A stretch of DNA of 64,000 nucleotides from Chlorobiaceae bacterium (GTDB lineage: Bacteria > Bacteroidota > Ignavibacteria > UBA10030 > SZUA-254), in contig PNNN01000039.1 in assembly GCA_013824245.1 (NCBI GenBank), positions 1 to 64,000 on the forward strand, given 5' to 3'. Below are positions 3,642 to 21,463 of the stretch, one piece after another; within the stretch, counting starts at the first letter, position 1; the number at the start of each line of letters is the position of its first letter. The position numbers were made by a program, and so were the translations under genes. The notes beneath the pieces were generated by a model that worked only from the letters and a program-made list of their open reading frames with translations, did no database searches and was not told where the DNA came from.

Positions 3642-3644
3642 GTA

Positions 3645-5885: not shown

Positions 5886-5901
5886 TGGCACGAAACTTGT
5901 G
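5886..5901 (+). promoter_or_regulatory. Sigma-54 (-24/-12) promoter for the hdr/hydrogenase operon
   Basis: TGGCACGAAACTTGTG matches the sigma-54 consensus TGGCACG-N4-TTGC at every position except the last C (here T). GG at 5887-5888 and GT at 5899-5900 keep the obligatory 10-base spacing. The predicted start is near 5911, giving a leader of ~370 bases before hdrC. It lies between the operon and a divergent NtrC-type activator gene, which supports function. Confidence 0.55.
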
Positions 5902-6278: not shown

Positions 6279-6962
6279 ATGGCTGAATCTTTACGAACTC
6301 CATTTTTTATGTCAAAAACAGAGGCAGAACTCCGACAAGTTTTCCTCGAACAAGTTAAACAAATTCCGGCCGGAGAAAGAATCAAGCGGTGCATTCAGTG
6401 TGGTACATGCACGGGGTCTTGTCCGGTAAGTTATGCAATGGATATTTCGCCGCGCGAACTGATCGCTCTTTTTCGAGCGGGCGAGATGGAAACCATAATG
6501 AAAAGCCGAACGATCTGGATCTGCGCCTCCTGTTATTCTTGTACAACGCGTTGTCCATCGGGGATTAAAATTACCGATATTATTTACGCGCTCAAACGAA
6601 CAGCGATGGAAAAGCAATACAAATCGAAATCCCCGCAAGTGCAAGTTCTTGCCAACTTATTTATTGAAAACCTGATGGCTTACGGACGATTGCACGAGGG
6701 AACCCTCATCAGAAAATATTACATGAAAACGAACGTGGCAAAAATGTTCGGACTTATTTCGCTCGGCAGAAAAATGTTCGCAACCAAACGCATTGCAATC
6801 TTTCCGAAGAAGATAAAACAACATGAAGCGCTTTCACGCATAATTAAAAAGGCGCAGGAAATTGAAATTCGCCACACACCGGAACGGATGGAGTATTCTC
6901 CCGATTATGTTGGATATAAAGCTATCGGTGAAATGGAACTTGAACAACGGAAAGGGAATTAA
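6279..6962 (+). CDS. hdrC: HdrC-like [4Fe-4S] electron carrier subunit
   Basis: This 227-residue protein carries two classical [4Fe-4S] ligand sets, C38-C41-C44-C48 (CIQCGTCTGSCP) and C82-C85-C88-C92 (CASCYSCTTRCP), followed by a helical tail. The SYAMDISPRELI segment after the first cluster is typical of HdrC. In heterodisulfide reductase HdrC links the flavin subunit HdrA to the catalytic HdrB. It is followed after 2 bases by hdrB and heads the long plus-strand run behind the -24/-12 promoter. There is no membrane anchor, so it is the cytosolic HdrABC type rather than the membrane HdrDE type. The length agrees with stand-alone HdrC proteins. Confidence 0.93.
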   Translation: MAESLRTPFFMSKTEAELRQVFLEQVKQIPAGERIKRCIQCGTCTGSCPVSYAMDISPRELIALFRAGEMETIMKSRTIWICASCYSCTTRCPSGIKITDIIYALKRTAMEKQYKSKSPQVQVLANLFIENLMAYGRLHEGTLIRKYYMKTNVAKMFGLISLGRKMFATKRIAIFPKKIKQHEALSRIIKKAQEIEIRHTPERMEYSPDYVGYKAIGEMELEQRKGN

Positions 6963-6964
6963 CC

Positions 6965-7837
6965 GTGAAATACGCATATTATCCCGGATGCAGTCTTGAA
7001 AAAACCCAACGTGGTTATGATGAATCTGTTCGCGAAGTGTTTCGGACACTCGATCAGGAAATTGTAGAGATCGAAGATTGGAATTGCTGCGGGGCAACCG
7101 TTTATATGTCGGTTAAAGAAACTGTCTCTCTTGCAATTTCTTCACGGAATCTCGCTCTTGCCGAGCAAATGGGTTTGCAGGTGATGGCACCATGCAGTTC
7201 ATGCTTCACCGTTTTATCTAAAACAAATAGGATATTAAACGAAATTCCGAAACTGCATTCCGACGTGAATGAAGCGTTAGCCGAAGCAGGTTTAAATTAT
7301 ACTGGAAAAACAAAAGTACGTCATCCGCTTGATATACTGATGAACGACATTGGAATAGAAGCGATGCAAAAAAAGATGAAACATAATTTGAATGGGTTGA
7401 AGATCGCGCCATACTATGGATGTCAAATTGTGCGCCCCGATAAAACATTCGACGATAAAGAAAATCCAATTCTCATGGATCGATTATTCAGAAAGTGCGG
7501 CGCAGAGGTAGTATATTTTCCTATGAAAGTGCGATGCTGCGGCGGTATGTTGATGACGACATTCGAAGAAACTGCTTTAAAACTGAATAAAGAATTACTC
7601 GAATGTGCAGTGGCAAACGGAGCAGATGTAATTGTTACAACATGTCCGCTCTGCCACTTTAATCTTGAAGCGTATCAGGATAAAATCAACGATGTTTATA
7701 AAACAAACTTTTCAGTTCCAATTTTATATTTCACCCAGTTGTTAGGAATTGTTTTCGGTTTACAACAAAAAGCCATTGGACTCGATTCTTCTTTTATTCC
7801 ATTGGGCGATAAAGTGACATCATTAGTGACAGTCTGA
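6965..7837 (+). CDS. hdrB: HdrB-like CCG-domain subunit
   Basis: This 290-residue protein has two complete cysteine-rich CCG modules: C9, C41-C42, C77, C80 and C153, C191-C192, C227, C230 (CCGA...APCSSC and CCGG...TCPLC). In characterised HdrB the two modules bind unusual non-cubane [4Fe-4S] clusters that reduce a disulfide. Both being intact argues for a catalytic or electron-exit role here. The physiological substrate is unknown, because bacteria of this kind do not make the methanogen heterodisulfide. Translation starts at GTG (6965), two bases after hdrC stops, so expression is probably coupled. It is followed by a 289-base gap before mdh. Confidence 0.93.
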   Translation: MKYAYYPGCSLEKTQRGYDESVREVFRTLDQEIVEIEDWNCCGATVYMSVKETVSLAISSRNLALAEQMGLQVMAPCSSCFTVLSKTNRILNEIPKLHSDVNEALAEAGLNYTGKTKVRHPLDILMNDIGIEAMQKKMKHNLNGLKIAPYYGCQIVRPDKTFDDKENPILMDRLFRKCGAEVVYFPMKVRCCGGMLMTTFEETALKLNKELLECAVANGADVIVTTCPLCHFNLEAYQDKINDVYKTNFSVPILYFTQLLGIVFGLQQKAIGLDSSFIPLGDKVTSLVTV

Positions 7838-8126: not shown

Positions 8127-9077
8127 ATGAAAATAGGAATTATTGGCGGCGGCAACATCGGTGGTGTGTTGGTGCAGGAAATAGTGCGACGAAAGCTTGC
8201 ACGATATGTCAGTCTCGTAGACGTGAAAGCACCCGATCTATCAAAAGGTAAATGTCTGGATATCTCAGAAGGTTTGCCGATCATATCATCCGACGTGGTG
8301 GTTGAAGGAGCGAAAGAGTACGATGTTATAGCCGGTGCAGATTTGGTTATCAATACAGCAGGTGTGCCGCGTGCAGCCCGCCCTGATGGCACCATTCCCA
8401 CGCGGGAAGAATTGTTGGCGACCAATTTAAAGATCACCGATGCAGTGAGCGAAGGTATATCAAAATTCTGCCCGAAGGCGATTATCATTTCGATTGCCAA
8501 TCCATTGGATGCTATCGTTTATCGACTCAACATGAATTTGAAACCGCCACGCGAAAAAGTTATGGGTATGGCAGGAGTGTTAGATTCGGCGCGATACAGA
8601 TATTTCGTAGCTAAAGAAATTGGCGTAAGCGTTGAAAACATTGAAGCAATGGTTCTTGGCGGTCACGGCGATGATATGTTACCTATCCGTTCGGCATGCC
8701 GTGTAGGCGGAATGCCGGTGGAAAAGTTTATTGCTCCTGAAAAACTTGATGCTATCGAAGCTCGCACGAGGCAGGCAGGCGGCGAGGTAGTTAAGTTGTT
8801 GGGCAGCGGCTCGGCATTTGTTTCTCCGGCATGGGCGGCGTTGGAGATGGCAGAAGCGATTATTTTTGATAAGAAAAAAATAATGCCGGTCTGCACATTG
8901 CTCAATGGTGAGTATGGCGTTAATGGTTTATTTATCGGCGTGCCGGTAATATTAGGCGCCAAGGGTATTGAAAAAATCATCACTATGGATTTGACTGACA
9001 AAGAAAAAGAAGCATTTGCCAAGTCTGTTGCGTCGGTAAAGAAATCGAGCGATGAAGTTCTGGCATTTGCGAAATAA
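8127..9077 (+). CDS. mdh: NAD-dependent malate dehydrogenase (LDH-like type)
   Basis: This 316-residue enzyme interconverts malate and oxaloacetate with NAD(H). The N-terminal Rossmann motif GIIGGGNIGG (4-13) with D32 at the end of strand 2 indicates NAD rather than NADP. The substrate-loop arginines lie in GVPRAARPDGTIPTREE, and catalytic H180 is in GGHGDD. It resembles the LDH-like malate dehydrogenases of Chlorobi. The substrate loop is a few residues longer than the common GxPRKPGMTR form, so specificity should be read with care. The ribosome site AAAGGAG is excellent. Its place between hdrB and hdrA, with an NAD-linked HydB subunit in the same locus, suggests that the malate/oxaloacetate pair is coupled to the NADH produced or used by the complex (inference). 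Confidence 0.93.
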   Translation: MKIGIIGGGNIGGVLVQEIVRRKLARYVSLVDVKAPDLSKGKCLDISEGLPIISSDVVVEGAKEYDVIAGADLVINTAGVPRAARPDGTIPTREELLATNLKITDAVSEGISKFCPKAIIISIANPLDAIVYRLNMNLKPPREKVMGMAGVLDSARYRYFVAKEIGVSVENIEAMVLGGHGDDMLPIRSACRVGGMPVEKFIAPEKLDAIEARTRQAGGEVVKLLGSGSAFVSPAWAALEMAEAIIFDKKKIMPVCTLLNGEYGVNGLFIGVPVILGAKGIEKIITMDLTDKEKEAFAKSVASVKKSSDEVLAFAK

Positions 9078-9198: not shown

Positions 9199-10071
9199 AT
9201 GTCACAGAATGGTCAACAGCAAAACGGTCAAACAAAAATTGGCGTATACATCTGTCATTGCGGCGTGAATATATCTGCAACCGTTAACATTGCCGCTCTG
9301 CGCGAGTTTATTGCAAAGGCGCCTAACGTTGCGATTGCGCGTGATTACAAATTTATGTGTTCCGATCCGGGGCAGGATTTAATAAAACAAGACATAAAAA
9401 AATTAGGAGTTAACCGTGTTGTGGTTGCCGCATGTTCTCCATTAATGCACGAGCTTACGTTCCGGCTTGCAGCCGAAGCAGGCGGATTGAATAGATATCT
9501 GGTACAAATTGCTAACATTCGTGAACATTGCTCGTGGATACACGATAATCGCGATGAGGCGACACATAAAGCAAAAGCGCTTGTAAATGCAGCGGTAAGC
9601 CGCGTTGCTCTTCACGAACCGTTGGAAATTAGTAAAGCTAAGATCAACAAAAACACTCTTATTGTTGGTGGCGGCATCGCCGGTATTCAAGCCGCACTCG
9701 AAATTGCAAACGCCGGTTATCATGTCTATTTGGTTGAAAAGGAACCGACTATCGGCGGGCGAATGGGTCAATTCGATAAAACATTCCCTACGCTGGATTG
9801 CGCCGCCTGTATTCTCACACCCAAAATGGTTTCAGTGGGTCATAGAAAAGATATAACTCTTATGACATATTCTGAAGTTGAAAGTATGAGCGGTTTCATT
9901 GGAAATTTTAAAATCAAAGTGCGTAAGAAAGCCCGATATGTTGACACTGATAAATGTACAGGTTGCGGTCAATGTTGGAGCAATTGTCCTGCAACAAGGA
10001 TTCCCTCCGGCAGATCTATATTAATAGGCGGAAAACTTGTGAACGAAAATGTAACGCGACCACAGGATTGA
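9199..10071 (+). CDS. hdrA: N-terminal half of split HdrA (flavin/[4Fe-4S] subunit)
   Basis: HdrA is the FAD-containing bifurcating subunit of heterodisulfide reductase and is normally ~650 residues. This protein has only 290. It contains the HdrA N-terminal domain with its cysteines (C19, C21, C54, C79, C111), the FAD-binding motif GGGIAG (157-162), the HdrA signature CAACILTPKM (201-210) and the first inserted ferredoxin cluster C253-C256-C259-C263, then stops ~27 residues later. The remainder, beginning at the equivalent point, is the C-terminal part of the gene at 16630. The stop is not at a sequence scar, and both halves keep all key residues, so this is a true split gene rather than decay. 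Shine-Dalgarno GGAGAA precedes the ATG. Confidence 0.9.
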   Translation: MSQNGQQQNGQTKIGVYICHCGVNISATVNIAALREFIAKAPNVAIARDYKFMCSDPGQDLIKQDIKKLGVNRVVVAACSPLMHELTFRLAAEAGGLNRYLVQIANIREHCSWIHDNRDEATHKAKALVNAAVSRVALHEPLEISKAKINKNTLIVGGGIAGIQAALEIANAGYHVYLVEKEPTIGGRMGQFDKTFPTLDCAACILTPKMVSVGHRKDITLMTYSEVESMSGFIGNFKIKVRKKARYVDTDKCTGCGQCWSNCPATRIPSGRSILIGGKLVNENVTRPQD

Positions 10072-10081
10072 GCGATATCCG

Positions 10082-10459
10082 ATGATGCTATTATCTTCCA
10101 TCAGCGAAATTCTTCAGTGCGAGTTATTCTCGGGGAAAGAGCAATTTAATCTTCCGATAGAATTTGGTTGTGCTTCCGATTTGATGAGCGATGTTCTCGC
10201 CTTTTCACAATCTGGTGCGCTTTTGCTAACAGGATTGGTGAACATACAAACAATTCAAACCGCACACATTGCGGAGATTAATGCTGTGATATTTGTTCGG
10301 GGTAAAAAGCCGGATTCTAAAATGATTGCACTTGCAACGGAAAAAAAGATACCGCTTTTAGGAACACGATTCTCGATGTATGAAGCTTGCGGTATTTTGT
10401 ATAAGACGGGACTTGTTCCAACGATGGAATGTTTGAAGTGCGAAGGCGATAATGGATAA
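10082..10459 (+). CDS. DRTGG-domain protein (first copy)
   Basis: This 125-residue protein matches the small DRTGG-type domain proteins that accompany bifurcating [FeFe] hydrogenase operons. Visible signs are GCASDLMSDVLAF, GALLLTGLVNIQTIQTA and the ILYKTGLVPTMECLKC end. The domain is also known from phosphotransacetylase and CBS proteins and is thought to be regulatory and ligand-binding. It contains no catalytic motif. A paralogue lies at 12212. It starts 10 bases after hdrA-N and overlaps the next gene by 8 bases. The C-terminal CLKC pair could bind a metal. Family placement is fairly secure; function is not known. Confidence 0.8.
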   Translation: MMLLSSISEILQCELFSGKEQFNLPIEFGCASDLMSDVLAFSQSGALLLTGLVNIQTIQTAHIAEINAVIFVRGKKPDSKMIALATEKKIPLLGTRFSMYEACGILYKTGLVPTMECLKCEGDNG

Positions 10460-10877
10460 TACGTTTTTACAAACTTTTAAAATTCAAGGAGGGAATATTT
10501 ATAATGCCGGAAAAGCTTCGACAGAAATTAAAGCGATTCTGAAACAGCTCGGCATCAATGCAAAGATAGTCAGGCGTGTTGCAATAGCGTCTTACGAAGC
10601 TGAAATGAATGTTGTGATGTATGCCAAACAGGCAACCTTAAAATTTGAAGTTTCACCATCACAAATATCGATAACTGTTGAAGATGAAGGACCCGGTATA
10701 CCGGATGTCGGCTTAGCGATGCAGGAAGGATATTCAACTGCAACGCCAGAGATGCGCGAGATGGGCTTCGGCGCTGGAATGGGTTTACCGAACATAAAAA
10801 AAAACTCTGATTATTTAAAAATTGAATCTATATTGGGCAAGGGAACAAAAGTTACGATAACATTGAATGTTAACTGA
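10452..10877 (+). CDS. RsbW-like GHKL ATPase/serine kinase
   Basis: This 141-residue stand-alone ATPase of the anti-sigma-factor kinase type has N box EAEMNVVMYA, G1 box EDEGPGIPD and G2 box GFGAGMGLPNI. There is no HisKA domain, so it would phosphorylate a protein partner on Ser/Thr or bind it, as RsbW and SpoIIAB do. Such proteins recur beside HydABC hydrogenase genes, where their job is unproven. It overlaps the DRTGG gene by 8 bases and is 3 bases from the next gene, indicating tight co-translation. No anti-anti-sigma (STAS) partner is present in the window. Confidence 0.85.
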   Translation: MDNTFLQTFKIQGGNIYNAGKASTEIKAILKQLGINAKIVRRVAIASYEAEMNVVMYAKQATLKFEVSPSQISITVEDEGPGIPDVGLAMQEGYSTATPEMREMGFGAGMGLPNIKKNSDYLKIESILGKGTKVTITLNVN

Positions 10878-10880
10878 ACG

Positions 10881-12215
10881 ATGTACGGAGAATTCCATAC
10901 TATAAAATTTGTCTCTGAATTGTGTGATGGTCACATGCATTGTATGCGGATATGTCCAACACAAGCTATTCGTGTCCGAAATAAAAAAGCATTGCTGCTC
11001 GAAGATCGATGCATAGATTGCGGTGAATGCGTGCGTGTTTGTCCAAACAACGCAATTATCGCCATGACAAGTTCGTTCAAAGATTTTTCAAAATTTAAAT
11101 ATACAATCGCGCTGCCTTCTCCTGCATTCTATGCTCAATTCGGAAAAGATACAACTCCGTCTCTGATACTCGAAGCATTTAAAAAAATTGGATTCGACGA
11201 TGCATACGATGTTGCTTGTGCTTCAGAAGCTGTTAGCATCGCTATTCAGGAATATCTTGATACAAATAAATCTCCGAGACCGTTAATCTCATCATTTTGT
11301 CCTGCCATTGTGCAGTTAATCCAAATTCGATATCCGAATCTATTAGATCATCTCATTCCAATAGAATCGCCAATGGAAATCGCTGCGCGCGAAGCAAAAA
11401 ATTTAAAGATGAAAGAAACCGGACTCAAAGCAAGCGAAATAGGCGCAATTTATATTACGCCCTGTCCCGCGAAAATGCTAACCATTAAAAATCCATTACG
11501 AAAGAAACATTCCTTCATCGATGGTGCAATTGCAATGCACGATATCTATCCTACTTTGCTTCAAGCCATTGCTCAATCTAACGGAAGTAATGATTTTAAA
11601 GAGGTGCAAGGGCTGGGACTTGGATGGCCTATAGTTGGCGGGCAAGTTGCATGTTTGAAAGCTGAGGATTGTCTTGCGGTTGGCGGCATAACCGATTCTG
11701 TGCGGATTCTTGAAGATATCGAAAACGATAAACTCAAAAACATTCAATATGTTGAGTGTCATTCTTGTCCAACCGCTTGTGTTGGAGGAACCTTGGCTGT
11801 TGAAAATCCATATATCGCCAGAGGCAGAGTACTTCGGATGGTGAAAAAATACGGATCAACTCCGTGTCAGGATAGAGAAAAAATTCGTGGATTATACCAA
11901 AAGAACTTTTTCTCACTGACAGGTAAAATTCCGCCTCACCCCGTACAACCGCTTGATGAAGAGATATCCAAGGCGATAGAGAAAATGCAGAAGAAGCAAG
12001 GCATTCACGATAAACTTCCGAAAATAGATTGCGGTGCCTGCGGTTCACCAACCTGTTTGTCGTTTGCAGAAGATGTGGTATTAGAGCGCGTAACACTCGA
12101 CGATTGCATCTTTGTTGCAATTAAAAAATTTGAAAAATTATCGAGCGAATTGCTTGAAACGGTTCTTCGACATAGTGAAAAAATAGACAGCAACATTGAA
12201 ATAATAACATCATGA
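10881..12215 (+). CDS. [FeFe]-hydrogenase-like iron-sulfur protein, probably regulatory
   Basis: The order in 444 residues is: an N-terminal ferredoxin pair, where the first set is C15-x2-H18-x2-C21-x3-C25 with a histidine replacing a cysteine and the second is C44-C47-C50-C54; a domain related to the [FeFe]-hydrogenase large subunit (about 70-335) with degenerate H-cluster motifs SSFCPAI, TPCPAK and ECHSCPTACVGG; a four-cysteine FeS domain (CGACGSPTC, near 380); and a helical tail. Catalytic hydrogenases have TSCCPxW, MPCxxKK and a CxGGC motif, so this member is unlikely to make H2. Homologues accompany HydABC operons and are thought to be sensors. The last 4 bases overlap the next DRTGG gene. 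Confidence 0.85.
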   Translation: MYGEFHTIKFVSELCDGHMHCMRICPTQAIRVRNKKALLLEDRCIDCGECVRVCPNNAIIAMTSSFKDFSKFKYTIALPSPAFYAQFGKDTTPSLILEAFKKIGFDDAYDVACASEAVSIAIQEYLDTNKSPRPLISSFCPAIVQLIQIRYPNLLDHLIPIESPMEIAAREAKNLKMKETGLKASEIGAIYITPCPAKMLTIKNPLRKKHSFIDGAIAMHDIYPTLLQAIAQSNGSNDFKEVQGLGLGWPIVGGQVACLKAEDCLAVGGITDSVRILEDIENDKLKNIQYVECHSCPTACVGGTLAVENPYIARGRVLRMVKKYGSTPCQDREKIRGLYQKNFFSLTGKIPPHPVQPLDEEISKAIEKMQKKQGIHDKLPKIDCGACGSPTCLSFAEDVVLERVTLDDCIFVAIKKFEKLSSELLETVLRHSEKIDSNIEIITS

Positions 12216-12556
12216 AACTAGAAACAATCGTAAATAAATTAGGATTAAGATTGCTCTGTTCTGAAAAAAAGCTTAAGCAGGAAATTACCGGTGGCTACGC
12301 AAGCGATTTACTGAGTAACGTAATTGCCCGCAGCAAACAAGGAGATGTTTGGGTGACAATGATGTCGCATGCCAATATTATTGCGGTTGCAGTTTTAAAA
12401 GACCTTGGTGGAATTATTATTACCGAAGGTCGGGAACCCGACACCGATACCATAAAAAAAGCGACGGAAGAACAGGTTCCGTTGATGCTTACAACATTAT
12501 CAACTTTTCAGGTTGTCGGAAAACTTTACGAGATGGGTATCCATCCCGGATCGTAA
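12212..12556 (+). CDS. DRTGG-domain protein (second copy)
   Basis: This 114-residue protein is a paralogue of the one at 10082, with GYASDLLSNVIARSKQGDVW, a variable VTMMSHANIIAVAVLKD segment and the end LYEMGIHPGS. It lacks the C-terminal cysteines of the first copy. It overlaps the preceding gene by ATGA and its stop overlaps the start of the PHP gene (TAATG), so the three are translationally coupled. As with the first copy a regulatory, ligand-binding role is likely but unproven. Having two copies flanking the [FeFe]-like protein is typical of HydABC-type loci. Confidence 0.82.
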   Translation: MKLETIVNKLGLRLLCSEKKLKQEITGGYASDLLSNVIARSKQGDVWVTMMSHANIIAVAVLKDLGGIIITEGREPDTDTIKKATEEQVPLMLTTLSTFQVVGKLYEMGIHPGS

Positions 12557-13293
12557 TGGCAAAAATTATCAGGGCAGATTTGCATGTGCATACATGCCTT
12601 TCGCCCTGTGGCGATTTAAAGATGACGCCACAAAATATTGTAGCAAGAGCTTTATATCATAACATAGACGTTATCGCAATCAGCGATCATAATACCGCGG
12701 AGAACATTCCGGCAGTTCTTCGCGCGGCTCACGGAACGCCGCTTATCGTGCTGCCCGGCATGGAAGTTTGCACGAGAGAAGAAGTTCATTTAGTAGCGCT
12801 CTTTGAAAATATTGAAGCGGTTTTTGAGATGCAAGCGAAAGTATACGATAAACTTCAAGGCAAAAATAACCCGGAAGTTTTCGGTATGCAGGTAATTGGA
12901 AATGAGTTCGATGAAGTGCTTGGCTTCAACGACAGACTCTTAATCGGTGCTGTTGATATGTCGATTGAGGAAGTTGTCAATAGAATCCATAAACTTAACG
13001 GACTAGCAATCGCCTCGCATATAGATCGCGATAGTTATAGTGTAATCGGTCAGTTAGGGTTTATTCCCGAGACTTTAAAATTCGATGCTTTGGAAATATC
13101 ATCAATGATGTCCATCGAAGAAGCGAAAAAGATTTATGCAGAGTACACTAAGTATCCATTTATTCAAAATTCAGACGCACACTTTATTGATCATATCGGC
13201 AAATGCACAACAGAATTTTTATTGGAAAAATCATCGTTTGATGAAATCAAAAAAGCCCTTAGAAATGAAAATGGTAGAAAGATAAAGGTTTGA
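12556..13293 (+). CDS. PHP-domain metal-dependent phosphoesterase-like protein
   Basis: This 245-residue protein starts at the ATG that overlaps the previous stop (TAATG). A longer in-frame extension upstream would lie inside the DRTGG gene and is rejected. Metal ligands of the PHP fold are in place: H10 and H12 (DLHVHTCLSPCGD), SDHNT, GMEV, an internal EVHLVALF histidine, ASHIDRD and the final NSDAH. PHP enzymes hydrolyse phosphate esters, for example of nucleotides or histidinol phosphate; this subfamily (TrpH-like) has no assigned substrate beside hydrogenases. It recurs in bifurcating hydrogenase operons, so it probably belongs to their regulatory or maturation kit. Confidence 0.85.
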   Translation: MAKIIRADLHVHTCLSPCGDLKMTPQNIVARALYHNIDVIAISDHNTAENIPAVLRAAHGTPLIVLPGMEVCTREEVHLVALFENIEAVFEMQAKVYDKLQGKNNPEVFGMQVIGNEFDEVLGFNDRLLIGAVDMSIEEVVNRIHKLNGLAIASHIDRDSYSVIGQLGFIPETLKFDALEISSMMSIEEAKKIYAEYTKYPFIQNSDAHFIDHIGKCTTEFLLEKSSFDEIKKALRNENGRKIKV

Positions 13294-13320
13294 CCCTCTT
13301 CCCTAGACTGGGATGAGGGT
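13293..13320. other. Intercistronic hairpin before the second GHKL ATPase gene
   Basis: ACCCTCTTCCC (13293-13303) and GGGATGAGGGT (13310-13320) pair with one T-T mismatch around a 6-base loop. It lies immediately upstream of the next start and ends without a T-tract. It may mark an mRNA processing point or modulate translation of the gene at 13331. Confidence 0.45.
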
Positions 13321-13330
13321 AAAAAAATGA

Positions 13331-13870
13331 ATGGAAGATTTATCTCTACATATTTTGGATATAGCAGAAAACTCGACCACAGCGGGCGCTAAAAATATTG
13401 AAATAATCATAACAGAAAATAACGAAAATGATCTACTTAAAATTGAAATTATCGACGATGGAAAAGGAATGACACCGGATCAAACGCAAAAAGCAACCGA
13501 CCCATTCTTTACAAGTCGGACAACACGACGTGTTGGACTCGGATTATCGCTTCTGAACCAGGCTGCCCAAATGGCAAATGGCTTGATGGAAATTCAATCG
13601 ATAAAAGGAAAAGGTACAAGAGTCAGTGCAACGTTCCAGTTGAGCCATGTCGACCGTCAACCGTTAGGGAATATGGCAGATACTATTATTGCGCTTATTA
13701 TCGCTAATCCAAATATTAACATAGTATATAAATATGAGCGTGATGATCATAAATTTGTATTGGACACGAGAGAAATTAAAGAAAAAATAAAAGGAATTAA
13801 CATTAATTCGACAAGCGTAATTTCTTTTGTTCGGCAGTATATTAAAGAAAACACAGAAAGTTTTTCATAA
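13331..13870 (+). CDS. GHKL ATPase (HATPase_c) of hydrogenase-operon type
   Basis: This 179-residue protein has a GHKL ATP-binding fold in its first ~110 residues: N box ILDIAENSTTAGA, G1 DDGKGMTPD, an FFTSR box and G2 RRVGLGLSLLNQ. There is no phospho-acceptor histidine. The remaining ~70 residues are a small alpha/beta tail found in members that sit just before hydC/nuoE in HydABC loci. It is a second, distinct ATPase besides the RsbW-like one. It follows the PHP gene after 37 bases and precedes hydC by 21. Its role is probably to phosphorylate or gate a partner in the operon; no partner can be named. Confidence 0.82.
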   Translation: MEDLSLHILDIAENSTTAGAKNIEIIITENNENDLLKIEIIDDGKGMTPDQTQKATDPFFTSRTTRRVGLGLSLLNQAAQMANGLMEIQSIKGKGTRVSATFQLSHVDRQPLGNMADTIIALIIANPNINIVYKYERDDHKFVLDTREIKEKIKGININSTSVISFVRQYIKENTESFS

Positions 13871-13891: not shown

Positions 13892-14359
13892 ATGGAATTA
13901 AATGTTCAACAAAAAGCAGAGGAAATTGTCAATCGATGGAATTGTGCGCCTAGTAATGTGATTGAGATGATGCACGATATCCAGAACGAATTCAATTATT
14001 TACCCAAGGAACTTCTGTATGAAATATCAAATAAAGTGAATGTTCCAATTGCAAAAATTTATAATATCGCAACATTCTACAATGCCTTCAGTCTAAAACC
14101 TAAAGGAAGACATCGAGTTCATGTATGTATGGGAACGCCGTGTCATGCGCTTGGAGCTCCTCGCGTTGTTAGTGCCATAGAGCGGGAACTCGGGATTAAA
14201 TGCGGTGACACAACCCCGGATATGAAATACAGTCTTGACATTTGTGGATGTGTGGGAACTTGCGGTCTTGCCCCGGTAGTCATTATTGGAGACGATCTCT
14301 TTGGTCCGATAAAAGTCGATGGTGTCCCGCGATTACTCAAAAAATACGAATCTAAATAA
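13892..14359 (+). CDS. hydC: NuoE/HydC-type [2Fe-2S] subunit
   Basis: This 155-residue thioredoxin-fold ferredoxin has the four NuoE ligands C79, C84 (CMGTPC) and C120, C124 (CGCVGTC), preceded by the helical domain with the typical IYNIATFYNAF segment. The family passes electrons next to the NADH/FMN subunit in complex I and in bifurcating hydrogenases. Shine-Dalgarno GAGGAG is strong. It is followed by a separate thioredoxin-like [2Fe-2S] protein and then hydB, the standard HydC-x-HydB order of bifurcating hydrogenases. It most probably docks on the HydB-type subunit at 14782. Confidence 0.93.
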   Translation: MELNVQQKAEEIVNRWNCAPSNVIEMMHDIQNEFNYLPKELLYEISNKVNVPIAKIYNIATFYNAFSLKPKGRHRVHVCMGTPCHALGAPRVVSAIERELGIKCGDTTPDMKYSLDICGCVGTCGLAPVVIIGDDLFGPIKVDGVPRLLKKYESK

Positions 14360-14376: not shown

Positions 14377-14760
14377 ATGCCACGGTTAAAAATCGAAGAT
14401 TTAGACAAAATCGCTGACCAGCAGCGTAGGAAAATGACCGTCAGAGAGGGCGGAGGTAAAGCAAAAATTACAGTTCACATGGGAACTTGCGGTATAGCAG
14501 CAGGTGCTCGGAATATCATGAGTACATTTTTAAAAGAAATCGAAGCACACAATGCTCATGACGTAATTCTTACTACTTCTGCATGTGCCGGTTTATGCAG
14601 CCGCGAACCTATGGCAACTGTTGAACTTGCTGGACAGGCGCCTGTAAAATATGTAGACCTAACAGAAGAAAAAGCAAAAAAGATTTTCGCAAGTCATGTC
14701 CTTCAGGGGAAATTAGTGCAGGATTATGCACTCTCTATTGGCAGCGAGCGAATACAATAA
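14377..14760 (+). CDS. Thioredoxin-like [2Fe-2S] ferredoxin-type accessory protein
   Basis: This 127-residue protein is related to the N-terminal domain of HydB/NuoF-like subunits. Cysteines C38 (MGTCGIAAGA), C70 and C74 (SACAGLCSREP) are visible, but the fourth ligand expected at about position 43 is alanine. A canonical four-cysteine cluster is therefore not possible without another ligand, a feature that I believe is usual in this subfamily. Its place between hydC and hydB is typical of HydABC operons. It may assist electron transfer or assembly of the NAD-binding module. Start and Shine-Dalgarno (AGAAGGAG) are clear. Confidence 0.85.
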   Translation: MPRLKIEDLDKIADQQRRKMTVREGGGKAKITVHMGTCGIAAGARNIMSTFLKEIEAHNAHDVILTTSACAGLCSREPMATVELAGQAPVKYVDLTEEKAKKIFASHVLQGKLVQDYALSIGSERIQ

Positions 14761-14781: not shown

Positions 14782-16614
14782 ATGAAACAATATAGATTAC
14801 AAGTAATGGTTTGTGCCGGGACAGGTTGTGTCTCTAACCATTCATTTGAATTAAAAGAAGCTCTCGATAGAGAGATAAAAAAACACAATCTTCAAAACGA
14901 GACCGAAGTTGTGTACACTGGCTGCAATGGATTTTGTGGTGCAGGACCAATTGTGGTTGTACAGCCGGATGGAATATTTTATCAACTTCTAAAAGTTACG
15001 GATATCCCCCACCTCGTGGAAGAACATCTTCTTAAAGGCAGACCTGTGAAGAAGAATCTCTACACGCCGCCTGCCGAGAAGACACCGATACCAAAAATGG
15101 CCGATATTCCGTTCTTTTCCGATCAGACACTTATTGCATTACGCAATAGAGGTATGATTGATCCAGAAAAGATTGATGACTACATTGCCCGAGGTGGATA
15201 CAAGGCGCTCGCAAAAGTGCTTACTTCTATGAAACCTGATGAGGTTATGTCTGAAATTAAAGCATCTGGATTGCGTGGGCGCGGCGGTGGCGGATTTCCC
15301 ACTGGCGTGAAATGGGAAACTTGTAAGAAAGCCCACGGCGATACAAAATATGTTATTTGCAACGCTGATGAAGGTGATCCAGGCGCGTTCATGGATCGAA
15401 GTATCATAGAAGGTGACCCACATGCCGTTATCGAAGGAATGATCATTGGTGCCTACGCTATCGAGAATGTTCATCAAGGATATATTTACGTACGTATGGA
15501 ATATCCTCTTGCGATCAAGCGTTTTCAGATAGCTATTCAGCAAGCACGGGAATATGGTTTATTAGGAAAGAATATTTTCGCTAAAGGATTTGATTTCGAT
15601 CTTGACGTACGGCGTGGAGCTGGTGCATTCGTTTGTGGTGAATCGACCGCTTTAATGGCATCAATCGAAGGCAGGCCAGGTGAGCCAAGAGCCAAATATA
15701 TTCACACAGTTGAAAAAGGATTATGGGATTGTCCAACATGCTTGAACAACGTGGAAACCTGGGTAAATGTGCCACAAATTATTTTAAAAGGTGCGAAATG
15801 GTTTTCAAGCGTTGGGACCGGTGATGTTTCAATTGATCCTTGGGGTGGGAGCAAGGGGACAAAAGTGTTTTCCTTAGCTGGTAAAGTTAATAATACTGGT
15901 TTAGTAGAAGTTCCAATGGGAATTTCACTTGGAGATATTGTTTATAAGATCGGGGGTGGAATTCGCGAAGGAAAGAAATTTAAAGCTGTCCAAACTGGTG
16001 GACCATCGGGTGGATTCATTCCTGAAAGTATGCTCGACATTCCCGTTGATTACGAAGAACTAACAAAAATCGGGTCGATGATGGGTTCAGGTGGTATGGT
16101 TGTATGCGATGAAGAAAACTGTATGGTCGATATGGCTAAATACTTCTTGAAGTTTACTCAGGAAGAATCTTGCGGCAAGTGTATCCCTTGTCGAGAGGGA
16201 ACAAAAAGGATGTTAGACATCCTTGAAAGAATCACCATTGGCGAAGGGACTGAAGAAGATTTATTATTACTTGAAGAACTTTCGAATATGATCGTTGAGT
16301 CTTCACTTTGTGCCCTCGGTGGCTCTGCCCCCAATCCGGTTCTTACAACATTAAAATACTTTCGTGAAGAATATGAAGCTCACGTAAAAAATAAAAAATG
16401 TCCAGCAAAGATTTGCCGTCAATTACTAACGTATACAATTGACCAAAAGATTTGTTTAGAAATCGGACATGGTTGTGGTGTTTGTAAGAAAAATTGTCCA
16501 GATGCCGCAATAATTGGTGAACGTAAGACAGTACATTATATTGATCCAGTTAAATGTGGCAAATGTGGTGCATGTTATGATGTCTGCAATTTTAATGCAA
16601 TCATTATTGAATAA
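14782..16614 (+). CDS. hydB: NuoF/HydB-type NAD(H)-binding flavin and Fe-S subunit
   Basis: This 610-residue protein has the full HydB architecture. The N-terminal thioredoxin-like [2Fe-2S] domain has C11, C16, C48 and C52. The FMN/NAD domain has GRGGGGFPTGVKW (166-178) and the ADEGDPGAFMDR loop. An SLBB segment follows, then the N3-type [4Fe-4S] set C464-C467-C470-C510 (SCGKCIPC) and two C-terminal ferredoxin clusters (C558/565/568/572 and C592/595/598/602). The extra C-terminal ferredoxin is characteristic of HydB of bifurcating hydrogenases and absent from complex I NuoF. It is the NAD(H) site of the complex. In the usual operon the [FeFe] HydA gene would follow; here the next gene is a HydA-N/HdrA-C fusion. 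Confidence 0.95.
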   Translation: MKQYRLQVMVCAGTGCVSNHSFELKEALDREIKKHNLQNETEVVYTGCNGFCGAGPIVVVQPDGIFYQLLKVTDIPHLVEEHLLKGRPVKKNLYTPPAEKTPIPKMADIPFFSDQTLIALRNRGMIDPEKIDDYIARGGYKALAKVLTSMKPDEVMSEIKASGLRGRGGGGFPTGVKWETCKKAHGDTKYVICNADEGDPGAFMDRSIIEGDPHAVIEGMIIGAYAIENVHQGYIYVRMEYPLAIKRFQIAIQQAREYGLLGKNIFAKGFDFDLDVRRGAGAFVCGESTALMASIEGRPGEPRAKYIHTVEKGLWDCPTCLNNVETWVNVPQIILKGAKWFSSVGTGDVSIDPWGGSKGTKVFSLAGKVNNTGLVEVPMGISLGDIVYKIGGGIREGKKFKAVQTGGPSGGFIPESMLDIPVDYEELTKIGSMMGSGGMVVCDEENCMVDMAKYFLKFTQEESCGKCIPCREGTKRMLDILERITIGEGTEEDLLLLEELSNMIVESSLCALGGSAPNPVLTTLKYFREEYEAHVKNKKCPAKICRQLLTYTIDQKICLEIGHGCGVCKKNCPDAAIIGERKTVHYIDPVKCGKCGACYDVCNFNAIIIE

Positions 16615-16629
16615 GAATCAGGAGCAAAG

Positions 16630-18393
16630 ATGGTCACAGTAAAAATAGATGGAATAGAAGTTCAGGTGCAGGAAGACACCCCAATACTTAAGGCAGCAGA
16701 AAAGGCAGGTATATGGATACCGACGATGTGTCATTCAGAGTTGTTCGAGCCGTACGGTGTTTGCCGTCTTTGTAGCGTGGAAGTTATCCGTGGCAAACGA
16801 ACTCGTATCGTGACAGCGTGTAACTATCCTGTGCGCGAAGGATTAACCATTCAAACTAACTCTGCAAAGATCCAATGGATCCGAAAAATAATAATGGAAT
16901 TGATGCTCTCTCGCTGGCCCAACGTCAAAGTAGTTAGTGAAATGGCAGCCAAACTGGGCGTAAAAGAATCAAGATTTCCCAGTCTTGAGCGCGATGAAGC
17001 GGAAGATGCTTGCATACTTTGCGGTCGGTGCGTAAATGTCTGTCGCGAAGTTGTGCAAGCTGAAATACTCGCTTTTGCTCATAGGGGAATTAAACGTGAA
17101 GTTGTTCTTCCATTTGGAGATCAATCAAACAAGTGTATCGTTTGCGGTGCTTGCGCTCATGTATGCCCAACCGGTCATATTAAAATGGTTGTCGAAGATT
17201 ATAAAGGTAAGAAACCGGAATTTACGCTCGGCGTAAAAACTCCGATAAGCGTGCCAACTTTACAAGCTGTTCCGCGGGTTCCGGTAATCGATACCGAATC
17301 TTGTATCTATTTTGAAACGGGTGGATGTCAAACCTGTGCAAAAGTATGCGAACCGCAGGCGATCAATTATAAAATGGAAGATGAGATTGTAGAAGTTGAA
17401 GCCGGACAGGTTTTGCTCACCACAGGTTACGATCTTTTCGATGCTTCGAAACTTGCGCAGTACGGTTACGGACGGCTCGATAACGTTTATTCATCTCTCG
17501 ATTTCGAAGCAATTTTAAATTCAACCGGTCCCACAGGTGGAAAAGTTGTAATGAAGAATGGAAACGAACCGAGATCGGTTGGTATACTCCACTGCATCGG
17601 TTCACGCGATGTTGAAAACCATCCATATTGCTCTCGCGTTTGTTGTATGTATGCATTGAAGTTCGCGCATTTGGTTCACGATAGAACCGATGCCGCTATC
17701 TATCAATTTTACATCGATATGCGGGCTTTCGGAAAAGGGTATGAAGAATTCTACAGCCGACTTCTTGATGAAGGTATAACAATGATCCGAGGAAAAGCAG
17801 CCGAAGTTGTGGAACGTAGTCACGGAATTAATGGCGATGGATCGCTACTGATTCGCTGCGAAGATACACTAATCGGAAAATTTAGAGAAATTCCTGTCGA
17901 TATGGTTGTGTTGTGCAACGCCATTGAGCCGCGCCACGATATTGAGGCAATACGCAGAATCTTCTCGATAAGTAAAAGTCCCGATGGATTTTTCTTGGAA
18001 CGTCACCCGAAGTTGGATCCAACATCCACCATGAGCGATGGCATATACATAGCAGGTTGCGCTCAGGGACCAAAAGATATTCCCGATACAGTTGCACAGG
18101 CGGGTTCTGCGGCGGCGCGCATTCTATCCATAATTGCCAAAGGTGAAGTTGACATCGATCCTATCCGTGCATTCATCGATGAGAAATATTGCGCCGGATG
18201 TAGAATGTGTAATAATCTTTGCCCATACTCGGCTATCGATTTTATTGATGATAAAAAGATATCCCAAATCAACGACGTCTTGTGCAAAGGATGTGGTACA
18301 TGCGTGGCGGCATGCCCGGCATCGGCGATAACCGGAAAAGGATTCTCGGATGCACAAATTTTTGCCGAGCTTGAAGGACTACTCGCAATATAA
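16630..18393 (+). CDS. Fusion: HydA/NuoG-like [2Fe-2S]-[4Fe-4S] N-terminus plus C-terminal half of HdrA
   Basis: In 587 residues the first ~200 form a NuoG/HydA-type N-terminus: [2Fe-2S] ligands C34, C45, C48, C64, then two ferredoxin clusters (C128/131/134/138 and C169/172/175/179). The His/Cys cluster normally between them is missing. From about 204 the protein becomes HdrA at the point where the 290-residue HdrA fragment stops: ferredoxin insert C225/233/236/240, FAD/NAD half with VLLTTGYDLFD, the HdrA signature HCIGSRDV...YCSRVCCMYALK (321-343), GIYIAGCAQGPKDI, and two terminal clusters (C521-C531 and C552-C562). It would join the HydBC module physically to the HdrA flavin core. Shine-Dalgarno CAGGAG precedes the ATG. 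Confidence 0.9.
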   Translation: MVTVKIDGIEVQVQEDTPILKAAEKAGIWIPTMCHSELFEPYGVCRLCSVEVIRGKRTRIVTACNYPVREGLTIQTNSAKIQWIRKIIMELMLSRWPNVKVVSEMAAKLGVKESRFPSLERDEAEDACILCGRCVNVCREVVQAEILAFAHRGIKREVVLPFGDQSNKCIVCGACAHVCPTGHIKMVVEDYKGKKPEFTLGVKTPISVPTLQAVPRVPVIDTESCIYFETGGCQTCAKVCEPQAINYKMEDEIVEVEAGQVLLTTGYDLFDASKLAQYGYGRLDNVYSSLDFEAILNSTGPTGGKVVMKNGNEPRSVGILHCIGSRDVENHPYCSRVCCMYALKFAHLVHDRTDAAIYQFYIDMRAFGKGYEEFYSRLLDEGITMIRGKAAEVVERSHGINGDGSLLIRCEDTLIGKFREIPVDMVVLCNAIEPRHDIEAIRRIFSISKSPDGFFLERHPKLDPTSTMSDGIYIAGCAQGPKDIPDTVAQAGSAAARILSIIAKGEVDIDPIRAFIDEKYCAGCRMCNNLCPYSAIDFIDDKKISQINDVLCKGCGTCVAACPASAITGKGFSDAQIFAELEGLLAI

Positions 18394-18432: not shown

Positions 18433-18882
18433 ATGGAATTTGAACCAAAAATAGTAGCATTTCTCTGCAACTGGTGTACATATACGGGTGCAGATCTTGC
18501 AGGTGTTTCGCGCCTAAAATCTCCGGCAAACATCAGAGTGATCCGTACAATGTGCAGCGGGCGTGTCGATCCAACTTTCGTAATGAAAGCATTCGATCTT
18601 GGCGCCGACGGTGTGCTGATAGGCGGATGCCACCCGGGCGATTGCCATTATGCAGAGGGAAATTATAAAACACTCAGACGTGCACACATGCTGAAAAAAA
18701 TTATGCGGAAATATGGTATTGATGAAAAACGACTCCGTCTCGAATGGATATCTGCCGCCGAAGGAGATAAATTTCAGGAAGTAACGACAACATTTACTGA
18801 GACTATTCGCTCTCTTGGACCGCTTGATTGGAGAAAGAGAATCGGTAAAGGTGATCGTACAGAACACACTGTTGCTGTTTGA
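18433..18882 (+). CDS. mvhD: MvhD-type [2Fe-2S] electron transfer subunit
   Basis: This 149-residue protein is of the MvhD/FlpD family, which carries one [2Fe-2S] cluster and connects HdrA to an electron-input module. Conserved cysteines are C12 and C15 (FLCNWCTYTGADLAG), C41 (TMCSGRVDP), C66 and C71 (GGCHPGDCHY). In methanogens MvhD bridges the [NiFe] hydrogenase MvhAG to HdrA, and here the gene sits between the HdrA-C fusion and mvhG, the same logical position. Length is normal. A 158-base gap with an inverted repeat separates it from mvhG. Confidence 0.94.
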   Translation: MEFEPKIVAFLCNWCTYTGADLAGVSRLKSPANIRVIRTMCSGRVDPTFVMKAFDLGADGVLIGGCHPGDCHYAEGNYKTLRRAHMLKKIMRKYGIDEKRLRLEWISAAEGDKFQEVTTTFTETIRSLGPLDWRKRIGKGDRTEHTVAV

Positions 18883-18909
18883 AACGGGAGTATTGAAAAA
18901 AGAATGAAT

Positions 18910-18958
18910 GGATTGCTGGAGTAATGGATCAATGTTGAATGCAACAATCCAGCAATCC
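18910..18958. repeat. Inverted repeat built of degenerate octamers between mvhD and mvhG
   Basis: GGATTGCTGGA (18910-18920) and TCCAGCAATCC (18948-18958) are perfect inverse complements with a 27-base loop. The left arm continues as a degenerate 8-base tandem (GGATTGCT, GGAGTAAT, GGATCAAT). No T-tract follows. It resembles small interspersed repeat words rather than a terminator, and it interrupts an otherwise compact set of subunit genes. Confidence 0.5.
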
Positions 18959-19040
18959 GATACTGCAATGATTAAATGTTCGAACTTAACCTTTTTATCA
19001 GAAAATAATTAGGACTAAGGAAAATATAAGGATATAATTT

Positions 19041-20006
19041 ATGGCAAAACCAAAATTAGCATTGTACTGGGCATCAAGCTGCGGCGGTTGTGAAATAGCA
19101 GTACTCGATATCCAAGAAAAGATCCTCGATGTGGCGAACGCTTTCGATATTGTGTTTTGGCCCGTCGCCATGGACTTTAAATATGATGATGTAAGAAAAA
19201 TGGAAGACAAGAGCATCGATCTTTGTTTGTTTAACGGTGCTATCCGAAATTCGGAAAATGCCGAGCTTGCTCATCTTCTTCGCGCAAAATCGAAAGCTCT
19301 TGTTGCATTCGGCTCTTGCGCGCATGAAGGATGTATTCCTGCTTTGGCAAACCTCACCACAAAAGATGCAATATTGAAATGGGTTTATAAAGATTCACCT
19401 TCAACCGTCAGTAATAATGGTGCTGTCTATCCTCAAACTCATACAAAAATGCCCGAAGGTGAGATCGAAATTCCTGAAATGTGGGAAACTGTAAAATCGC
19501 TCGATCAGGTTATTGATGTCGATTACTACGTACCGGGGTGTCCGCCACAGCCGTTTCAGATATGGAATGTTATCGAATATATTTTAAGCGGTAAACCGCT
19601 TCCACCAAAAGGTTCGGTCCTTGGTGCAGATGAAAAAACTTGCTGCGATGAATGTCCGCGAGAGCGTAAAGAGAAAAAAATAAAAAAATTCTTCAGACCT
19701 TATGAGATATTATCTAATCCGAATGAATGTCTTCTCGACCAAGGAATTATTTGTATGGGTCCGGCAACACGGAGCGGCTGTGGTGCACTCTGCACAAAAG
19801 CGAATATGCCTTGCCGTGGTTGTTACGGGGCGCCGCCGAATGTTGTAGATCAAGGCGCAAAAATGGTTAGCGCGCTTAGTTCCGTAGTAGATTCACAAGA
19901 CCCGAATGAGATCGACGAAATATTGAATCAAATCGTCGATCCGCTCGGAACATTCTATCGTTTTTCAATGGCTCACTCTATATTAAAGAGGGTTGATAAA
20001 ATATGA
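19041..20006 (+). CDS. mvhG: [NiFe]-hydrogenase small subunit, MvhG type
   Basis: This 321-residue subunit carries the Fe-S chain of a cytosolic [NiFe] hydrogenase. The proximal cluster ligands appear in SSCGGCE (C14, C17), GSCAHEGC and VPGCPPQP; a cysteine-rich C-terminal region (TCCDECP, GIICMGPATRSGCGALC, MPCRGCYGAPP) would hold the further clusters. There is no Tat signal or membrane anchor, in line with group 3c (F420-non-reducing, MvhG-like) enzymes. The start ATG follows AAGGATATA. The stop overlaps the start of the large-subunit gene by 4 bases, guaranteeing co-translation of the pair. Confidence 0.94.
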   Translation: MAKPKLALYWASSCGGCEIAVLDIQEKILDVANAFDIVFWPVAMDFKYDDVRKMEDKSIDLCLFNGAIRNSENAELAHLLRAKSKALVAFGSCAHEGCIPALANLTTKDAILKWVYKDSPSTVSNNGAVYPQTHTKMPEGEIEIPEMWETVKSLDQVIDVDYYVPGCPPQPFQIWNVIEYILSGKPLPPKGSVLGADEKTCCDECPRERKEKKIKKFFRPYEILSNPNECLLDQGIICMGPATRSGCGALCTKANMPCRGCYGAPPNVVDQGAKMVSALSSVVDSQDPNEIDEILNQIVDPLGTFYRFSMAHSILKRVDKI

Positions 20007-21463
20007 AACAGATTAAAATTGATCCGATAACCCGTTTAGAAGGACATGGCAAAATCGACATTTTCTTAAACGATGATGGTGAAGTTGCAAACACTTATTT
20101 CCAGATTCCCGAACTTCGCGGTTTCGAGCAATTTTGTGTCGGCAGACCGGTTGAAGAAATGCCGCGCATTACTACACGGATCTGTGGTGTTTGCCCCGAA
20201 GCTCATCACATGGCCTCGGCAAAAGCTTGCGATGCCGTTTTTCACGTTGAGATCCCACCCACAGCTAAAAAACTCCGTGAATTGTTATATAATGTGTTCT
20301 TCGCCGGCGATCATACAACCCATTTCTATGCTTTAGGCGGTCCAGATTTTGTAGTGGGACCAGATGCTCCAAAGGCGCAACGTAATATTCTCGGTGTTAT
20401 TGCAAAAGTTGGTCTGGAAGTCGGAGGAAAAGTTATCGAAATGCGAAAACGAACTCAGGAAGTTATTAAAACTCTCGGTGGTAAAAACACACATCAGGTA
20501 ACTTCGCTCCCGGGCGGGGTAAGCAAAGGAATTACGGAAGAAGAAAGAAAACAAATTGAGGAACACTGCAAATGGTTTGTTGATTTCGGCAAATTCACAA
20601 TTCAAGTGTTTAACGATATCGTACTAAAAAATCAAGCTTATGTCGATTTGATTCTGTCCGACATGTTTTCGATGAAGATTTATTCCATGGGACTTGTAGA
20701 TGAAAAGAACCGGGTAAGCTTCTACGATGGAAAAGTTCGCGTGGTTGACCCGGACGGTAAAGAATTCGTTAAGTATTCTCCAAATGAGTATCTCGATGTT
20801 GTGTCCGAACATGTTGAACCATGGACGTACTTAAAATTCCCATTCCTTAAAAAAGTTGGCTGGAAAGGATTTGTGGAAGGAAAAGATAGTGGCATTTACC
20901 GTGCAACACCTCTTTCTCGTTTAAATGCTGCCGACGGAATGCCGACTCCCGCCGCCCAAGAAGAGTACGATCGTATGTATAAAACCTTAGGCGGTAAACC
21001 GGTTCACGCAACACTCGCAACTCATTGGGCGCGAATTATCGAATTACTTAGTGCCGCAGAGATGGCGCTCGATTTGGTGCGCGATCCTGAAATTACCGGC
21101 ACAAATATTCGTACAATTCCAACTGCAACACCGACCGAAGGTGTTAGTATTGTAGAAGCTCCGCGCGGTACTCTTACTCATCACTATATTACGGATGAGA
21201 GGGGAATTTTGAAAAAAGTCAATCTCATTGTTGGTACTACGAACAATTACGCCCCCATTTCATTATCAATCAACAAAGCGGCTCGAGGACTTATTAAAAA
21301 AGGAACCGTAGTTACCGACGGCATTCTGAATACGGTAGAAATGGCATTCCGTGCATATGACCCATGTTTTGGATGTGCAACACATACATTGCCCGGACAA
21401 ATGCCGCTCGTCGTAAATATCAGAAATAAAGACGGAGAAATTATTCAAGAAATAAAAAGGTAA
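20003..21463 (+). CDS. mvhA: [NiFe]-hydrogenase large (catalytic) subunit, MvhA type
   Basis: This 486-residue protein binds the Ni-Fe active site, which splits or forms H2. The N-terminal signature is RICGVCPEAHH (C61, C64) and the C-terminal one DPCFGCATH (C455, C458, H461). An RLEGHG motif lies near residue 11. Twenty-five residues follow H461, the usual length of tail removed by the maturation protease, which is encoded next. All four nickel cysteines are present, so the enzyme should be active. Sequence flavour and gene context point to group 3c (Mvh/Hdr-linked), although the presence of HydBC would also recall group 3d NAD-linked enzymes. Subgroup should be confirmed by phylogeny. Confidence 0.95.
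   Translation: MKQIKIDPITRLEGHGKIDIFLNDDGEVANTYFQIPELRGFEQFCVGRPVEEMPRITTRICGVCPEAHHMASAKACDAVFHVEIPPTAKKLRELLYNVFFAGDHTTHFYALGGPDFVVGPDAPKAQRNILGVIAKVGLEVGGKVIEMRKRTQEVIKTLGGKNTHQVTSLPGGVSKGITEEERKQIEEHCKWFVDFGKFTIQVFNDIVLKNQAYVDLILSDMFSMKIYSMGLVDEKNRVSFYDGKVRVVDPDGKEFVKYSPNEYLDVVSEHVEPWTYLKFPFLKKVGWKGFVEGKDSGIYRATPLSRLNAADGMPTPAAQEEYDRMYKTLGGKPVHATLATHWARIIELLSAAEMALDLVRDPEITGTNIRTIPTATPTEGVSIVEAPRGTLTHHYITDERGILKKVNLIVGTTNNYAPISLSINKAARGLIKKGTVVTDGILNTVEMAFRAYDPCFGCATHTLPGQMPLVVNIRNKDGEIIQEIKR

Follow-up and report, generated by a model that had tools for sequence, protein, structure and literature searches.

What does a set of regulatory genes that normally sits beside HydABC [FeFe] hydrogenases do in an operon for a [NiFe] enzyme? 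We addressed this question for six genes, here called the kit, at positions 10082-13870 (+ strand) of a 64,000-nucleotide stretch of a Chlorobiaceae bacterium genome (contig PNNN01000039.1, positions 1 to 64,000; the window). Our preferred reading, to which we give slightly less than even odds (about 0.45), is that the kit is a conserved post-translational control system for HydBC (NuoEF, BfuBC), the NAD/ferredoxin module, and that its Fe-S protein serves here as a redox sensor without an H-cluster. The data suggest that the kit watches the NADH/ferredoxin half of the enzyme and not hydrogen itself, a point that matters for both the input and the target of signalling by group D "sensory" hydrogenases.

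The six genes are co-directional and encode a DRTGG-domain protein (DRTGG1, 10082..10459, with a start that may be 10085), a SpoIIAB/RsbW-like GHKL ATPase that is a putative Ser/Thr kinase (ATP1, 10452..10877; PF02518/PF13581), an Fe-S protein of the group D (M2e, TamHydS-type) [FeFe]-hydrogenase family with an altered H-cluster pocket (10881..12215), a second DRTGG-domain protein with a match over the cut-off (DRTGG2, 12212..12556), a PHP-family metallophosphoesterase (12556..13293; PF02811 and PF13263) and a stand-alone GHKL ATPase (ATP2, 13331..13870; PF02518). Open reading frame calls and Pfam searches found all six where a preliminary description of this DNA had placed them and in the families it had named, with DRTGG1 scoring just below its cut-off (PF07085, 21.6 of 25.2 bits). 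The tight packing it reported stands for the overlaps of 8, 4 and 1 bases, but its "3" proved to be a gap and a further gap of 37 bases precedes ATP2, so that the junctions read, in order, overlap 8, gap 3, overlap 4, overlap 1 and gap 37. The same genes recur in near-identical order in tens of genomes from several phyla. Ratios of nonsynonymous to synonymous substitution rates (dN/dS) relative to a sister species (G172) are 0.15 for DRTGG1, 0.04 for ATP1, 0.03 for the Fe-S protein, 0.06 for DRTGG2 and 0.21 for the PHP protein. Recurrence together with low dN/dS argues that the grouping is not due to chance, and the values for these five genes (0.03-0.21) indicate that the kit is functional in a genus that lacks HydA, HydF and HydG.

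These absences were established by profile searches. In the window genome (G000; 3.23 Mb, 100% complete), PF02906 gave one match only, the kit Fe-S protein itself, so the earlier statement that no [FeFe] hydrogenase is present holds for catalytic HydA. Against TIGR02512, the model of catalytic HydA, this protein reached 86 bits of the required 406, and in place of the group A HydA motifs TSC(C/S)P, MPCxxKxxE and CxGGCxxGGG it reads SSFCP, TPCPAKM and CPTACVGGT. The window genome had no HydF over the cut-off (the best match, 93 bits of 326, was read as a Der-type GTPase) and no match to HydG; HydE was not searched for. All of this holds for the sister species too. Given no other HydA-like gene, no HydF and no HydG, no H-cluster is expected in the window genome. 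As a separate observation, four other genomes (G341, which carries locus L058 and is a complete chromosome, G180, G314 and G336) score above the TIGR02512 cut-off for HydA, and in them neither HydF nor HydG reaches its cut-off. The HydA of L058, like most HydA proteins found with the kit, carries TSCSP in place of the usual TSCCP, whose second Cys is a cubane ligand.

The distribution of the kit across genomes follows HydB, not catalytic HydA. HydB-type NuoF was present in 36 of 36 kit genomes checked. HydA over the cut-off was found in 30 of 50 kit genomes and not in the other 20, one of which (L083) has HydA fragments. When we considered an even sample of 216 genomes from one class, the Clostridia, the kit occurred in 99 of 166 genomes with both HydB and HydA, 4 of 6 with HydB but not HydA, 2 of 19 with HydA but not HydB, and 1 of 25 with neither. 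Among genomes with HydA, presence of the kit thus depends on HydB (99/166 versus 2/19, p = 4e-5, kinship ignored), whereas among genomes with HydB the presence of HydA has no effect (99/166 versus 4/6, p = 1.0). In the Aminicenantia (142 genomes), the kit was found in 69 of 130 genomes without HydA versus none of 12 with it (p = 3e-4, kinship again ignored), so that here the two are mutually exclusive. The preliminary description had said that such a kit normally accompanies HydABC, which the occurrence data bear out, and had suggested that it serves HydBC rather than the [FeFe] active site; the part of this second claim that concerns occurrence agrees with our counts. We looked for strict co-occurrence with HydA, the pattern that would have spoken against it, and did not find it: HydA is missing from 19 of 50 kit genomes, and the Clostridia and Aminicenantia counts exclude such a pattern.

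A survey of 80 loci from public genomes revealed four kinds of HydBC partner beside the kit. The arrangement of the window, HdrCB-HdrAN-kit-NuoE-Fd2-NuoF-fusion-MvhDGA (hereafter window type), occurs in Acidobacteriota, Aminicenantes, Eisenbacteria and Ignavibacteria; the retention of the kit beside a [NiFe] enzyme, noted earlier for this DNA, extends to several phyla. In Bacillota the kit stands with NuoEF and catalytic HydA. In two loci the kit and NuoEF are joined by a short HydA-N and by Hdr/FlpD or NfnB-like genes, and the retrieved stretch contains no hydrogenase (L035:15748-21257 and L056:16591-21239); for these operons a third substrate of a new kind is possible. In three others the kit is followed by Rnf genes, with NuoEF in two and no HydA in the locus (L091:11645-16517, L098:4969-11794 and L108:13718-17676); in the L098 and L108 genomes, none of HydA, HydF and HydG scores over the cut-off. 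The kit also stands alone in gut Clostridia, Atribacteria and others, and in 4 of 6 lone-kit genomes examined (L112, L113, L114 and L117) ATP2 lies elsewhere, at the hydC-hydB junction, in the order NuoE-ATP2-Fd2-NuoF-HydA. The kit thus divides into a sensor part (DRTGG1-ATP1-Fe-S-DRTGG2-PHP) and a second part, ATP2, which is tied to HydBC. One 10.4 Mb genome has two tandem kits with NuoE between them (L156, G693:C708:8500-15000). It is conceivable, and we propose it tentatively, that a general six-protein kit of BfuBC serves [FeFe], [NiFe]-Hdr, Rnf-linked and hydrogenase-free complexes by way of a DRTGG phospho-switch, with its H2 sensor turned into a redox sensor in the [NiFe] branch.

The preliminary description had called the Fe-S protein HydA-like; this stands, but by fold and signature residues it can now be placed more precisely, in group D of putative sensory [FeFe]-hydrogenases. 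It combines PF02906 and PF04060 with ferredoxin domains and has the group D layout of two N-terminal [4Fe-4S] motifs, an H-domain and a C-terminal Cx2Cx4Cx16C motif (C384-x2-C387-x4-C392-x16-C409), with no PAS domain. Its structural model (predicted local distance difference test score 91.5) superposes on the [FeFe]-hydrogenase CbA5H with Z 34.6 and 2.7 A over 346 residues. Group D proteins lack C299 and have Ser or Thr for M353 (PMC8163306), and the window protein has F139 and T193 at these positions. It also keeps, as R31, R33, D383, E397, D398 and D408, the conserved group D residues R30, R32, D378, E392, D393 and D403 of TamHydS numbering (PMC13104023); D383 and D408 directly precede C384 and C409, matching D378-C379 and D403-C404. 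The group D proton path, E252-E289-S249-D265 (PMC10407848), is broken: E289 is kept as E292, while Q255, V252 and G268 occupy the positions of E252, S249 and D265. Descent and fold make the protein a member of group D; the proton path, as a functional mark, does not.

Changes in this path recur throughout the window type. The E252 position is never Glu in window-type operons (Q, I, L or V in 19 of 19) and is I, M or V in all 30 further Aminicenantia loci, whereas Glu is kept in 25 of 27 kit proteins beside HydA. Asp at D265 is found in 1 of 19 window-type proteins, most having Ser or Gly, versus 27 of 27 beside HydA. The C299 position is mostly Phe or Val in the 19 window-type loci and Ala in half of the Aminicenantia loci. 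All 19 window-type proteins retain the four cubane cysteines and K358, as well as all four cysteines of the C-terminal motif. L054 and L057, both of the window type, come from genomes with HydA and HydF, yet their proteins also lack E252; the loss therefore tracks operon type and not genome content. In a quick tree (no bootstrap, rooted on group C), the window type forms one clade with L035 and L044; the loss of E252 may therefore be a single event, and the Fisher p of 5e-11 for it is not evidence of repeated loss. Outside the window type, Glu is also lost in L035, L044, L085 and L100, and two lower-scoring Clostridia (L158 and L159) have Gln. In several relatives an in-frame TGA raised the possibility of selenocysteine, which we rejected because a normal stop is reached by the profile end, the exceptions being an internal TGA in L157 and another close to the C terminus in L155. 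The window branch separates roles that coincide elsewhere: the kit is under strong selection, yet the H-cluster pocket, the maturases and HydA are lost. The kit therefore cannot exist solely for H2 or HydA, and this branch points to HydBC as the target. What the window adds is a known hydrogen-sensor family that, together with the whole kit, was either transferred into a [NiFe]/Hdr setting or retained there, with no H-cluster expected.

How might such a kit work? Gene content, conservation, the association with HydB rather than HydA, the loss of the proton path and the lack of maturases are observed; the signalling, including the phospho-switch that the preliminary description had thought plausible, is inferred throughout. 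Each DRTGG protein has one invariant serine, in D-x2-S, within the invariant motif D33-x2-S36-D37 in DRTGG1 and alongside invariant D32 and T49 in DRTGG2 (S35). The GHKL site of ATP1 is whole, including the catalytic N-box Glu (E49...N53, D78-x-G80-x-G82, G105-F-G-A-G-x-G), and its boxes (N-box YEAEMN, DEGPGI and GFGAGMGL) are invariant in 64 relatives. The PHP protein keeps the metal ligands H10, H12, D44, H45, E70, H78, H155, D207 and H209. ATP2 has no phospho-acceptor (DHp) domain and carries a conserved DRxPxG in its C-terminal part; its fold is nearest, at a modest Z of 13.5 and 3.2 A over 139 residues, to MutL/GyrB ATPase domains. Under our preferred reading, the group D relative without an H-cluster would read the redox state of ferredoxin/HydBC through its [4Fe-4S] clusters and, depending on its state, would tip the balance towards the SpoIIAB-like kinase or towards the PHP phosphoesterase. 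These two enzymes would act on the invariant serine of both DRTGG proteins, which together with ATP2, at the receiving end, may pass the signal to HydBC. The C-terminal cluster of group D was found not to be reduced by H2 and has been discounted as a signal (PMC13104023).

Several observations weigh against control of HydBC by the kit. HydBC works without it, since 67 of the 166 Clostridia genomes with both HydB and HydA carry none, and Clostridia with HydB but not HydA are few (n = 6). The co-occurrence tests are uncorrected for shared ancestry, and most of the genomes are metagenome-assembled, many of them incomplete. Nine HydA-less loci (L056, L098, L103, L108 and L149-L153) keep the E252 Glu, and the retention of K358 and the four cubane cysteines fits a past or still possible H-cluster. 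In addition, the only kit protein studied biochemically, TamHydS, is an active, low-rate hydrogenase (PMC8163306).

Much of the same evidence can be read differently. Nar1/IOP1 is a eukaryotic, scaffold-like counterpart for cytosolic Fe-S proteins, and by analogy the six proteins could insert or assemble the Fe-S clusters of HydBC, the two GHKL proteins acting as chaperone-like ATPases and the HydA-like protein as scaffold. Tracking of HydB and not HydA would be expected of such factors, ATP2 with its MutL/GyrB-like fold is not a complete histidine kinase, and all Fe-S cysteines are kept where the catalytic pocket is lost. We nevertheless consider assembly unlikely: the intact PHP site and the SpoIIAB-like ATPase fit signalling better, the kit-free Clostridia count against it as well, and HydABC structures have been solved without kit proteins (PDB 7p5h, 7q4v, 8a6t). 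In at least 14 operons a split HdrA encloses the kit, and three to four [4Fe-4S] sites are kept; this would also suit structural subunits carrying electrons between HdrA, HydBC and Mvh, the Fe-S protein being an extra wire. A wire, however, needs no kinase-like ATPase, phosphoesterase or DRTGG proteins, and the five-subunit [NiFe] enzyme of Acetomicrobium mobile was purified without HydD, HydP and HisK of its operon, for which the authors assumed maturation or regulation (PMC8880783); a structural role is accordingly improbable.

The remaining alternatives keep a signal but change its target or its input. ATP1 could be an anti-sigma factor in a transcriptional partner switch, as its best NCBIfam match is anti-sigma F factor (TIGR01925) and as the TamHydS authors also proposed transcription regulation (PMC8163306). 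That match is far below the cut-off (53.5 of 135 bits), domain searches of the kit found no STAS, sigma or DNA-binding protein, and a histidine kinase with a sigma-54 response regulator already adjoins the window operon, so we regard a transcriptional switch as doubtful. It seems very improbable that the Fe-S protein is a true H2 sensor here as well, with an H-cluster or a reduced [2Fe] cofactor supplied by some undescribed pathway, and that the kit makes the [NiFe] enzyme respond to H2. TamHydS does bind an H-cluster and react with H2 (PMC8163306), and the four cubane cysteines, K358 and Thr at M353 are kept in the window protein. However, neither the window genome nor its sister species has HydF or HydG, the window type has lost E252 and D265 and mostly has a bulky residue at C299, even where HydF is in the genome, and TamHydS variants at E252 retain <0.01% of H2 oxidation (PMC10407848).

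The flanking gene order places the kit exactly between the halves of a split HdrA, inside the operon of an Hdr-NuoEF-[NiFe] complex. The N-terminal part of HdrA (290 aa, 9199..10071) lies directly upstream and ends 10 bases 5′ of DRTGG1. Downstream, all on the + strand, follow NuoE/HydC (13892..14359), a thioredoxin-like ferredoxin-type protein (Fd2, 14377..14760), NuoF/HydB of the BfuB type with FMN/NAD and ferredoxin domains (14782..16614), a 587-residue protein that fuses a HydA/NuoG N-terminal part (1-185) to the HdrA C-terminal part (166-587; 16630..18393), and mvhD, mvhG and mvhA, the [NiFe] hydrogenase module (18433..21463); hdrC and hdrB are at 6279..7837 (+). The same split HdrA with the kit between its halves was seen in L032, L034, L036-L040, L043, L055, L059-L061 and others. 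This arrangement points to an Hdr-NuoEF-MvhADG complex that we did not find in the publications consulted. A lactate/malate dehydrogenase gene is inserted between hdrB and hdrA-N (8127-9077), and L032 has a related gene upstream of hdrC. Divergent from hdrC lie a Cache/HAMP histidine kinase and the sigma-54 response regulator (2241-5627, - strand). We considered this pair as the output of the kit and kept it merely as a neighbour; a -24/-12-like site at 5886-5901 is weak and not above chance, the sigma-54 promoter pattern being uninformative (37 matches versus 26 expected).

Three known systems invite comparison. Like the SpoIIAB/SpoIIAA and RsbW/RsbV partner switches, the kit pairs a SpoIIAB-like ATPase, with conserved N-box and ATP-binding boxes, with small partner proteins bearing one invariant serine; it differs in having DRTGG for STAS and PHP for the PP2C phosphatase, and no sigma factor, so we claim a likeness in working and not membership. 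The Bfu (HydABC) family joins BfuB/BfuC and a NuoG-type HydA-N to varied third-substrate modules (PMC9304861, PMC8880783). Its members, including NiFe-HydABCSL of A. mobile, share with the window NuoE/HydC, NuoF/HydB and the NuoG-type N-terminal part of HydA, and the genes downstream of the kit have the family's features: NuoE, NuoF with SLBB, NADH_4Fe-4S and a C-terminal ferredoxin domain, and the HydA/NuoG-like 1-185. In the window, by contrast, HydA-N forms one protein with part of a split HdrA, and MvhADG and HdrBC accompany it, an Hdr-Bfu-Mvh type not found in the parts of PMC9304861 consulted. The closest relative of the sensor is TamHydS, the sole characterized group D member. Earlier work described group D genes upstream of HydABC with a histidine-kinase-like neighbour and regarded their products as putative sensors of H2 (PMC3561251, PMC3608648, PMC8163306), so the kit beside HydABC is partly known already; this literature names the kinase and an AraC-type neighbour, and our search of it found no description of DRTGG, PHP or the full six-gene set. 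TamHydS and its neighbourhood upstream of HydABC (Thermoanaerobacter, Caldicellulosiruptor) share with the window protein the domain order, R30/R32/K35, E289, E392/D393, the Cx2Cx4Cx16C motif with flanking D378/D403, Thr/Ser at M353 and the absence of a PAS domain. The window type differs by E252 to Q, D265 to G, S249 to V and C299 to F, and in its setting, with no HydF, HydG or HydA in the genome and Hdr-[NiFe] as the partner. Window type versus TamHydS type is a clean comparison for the signal.

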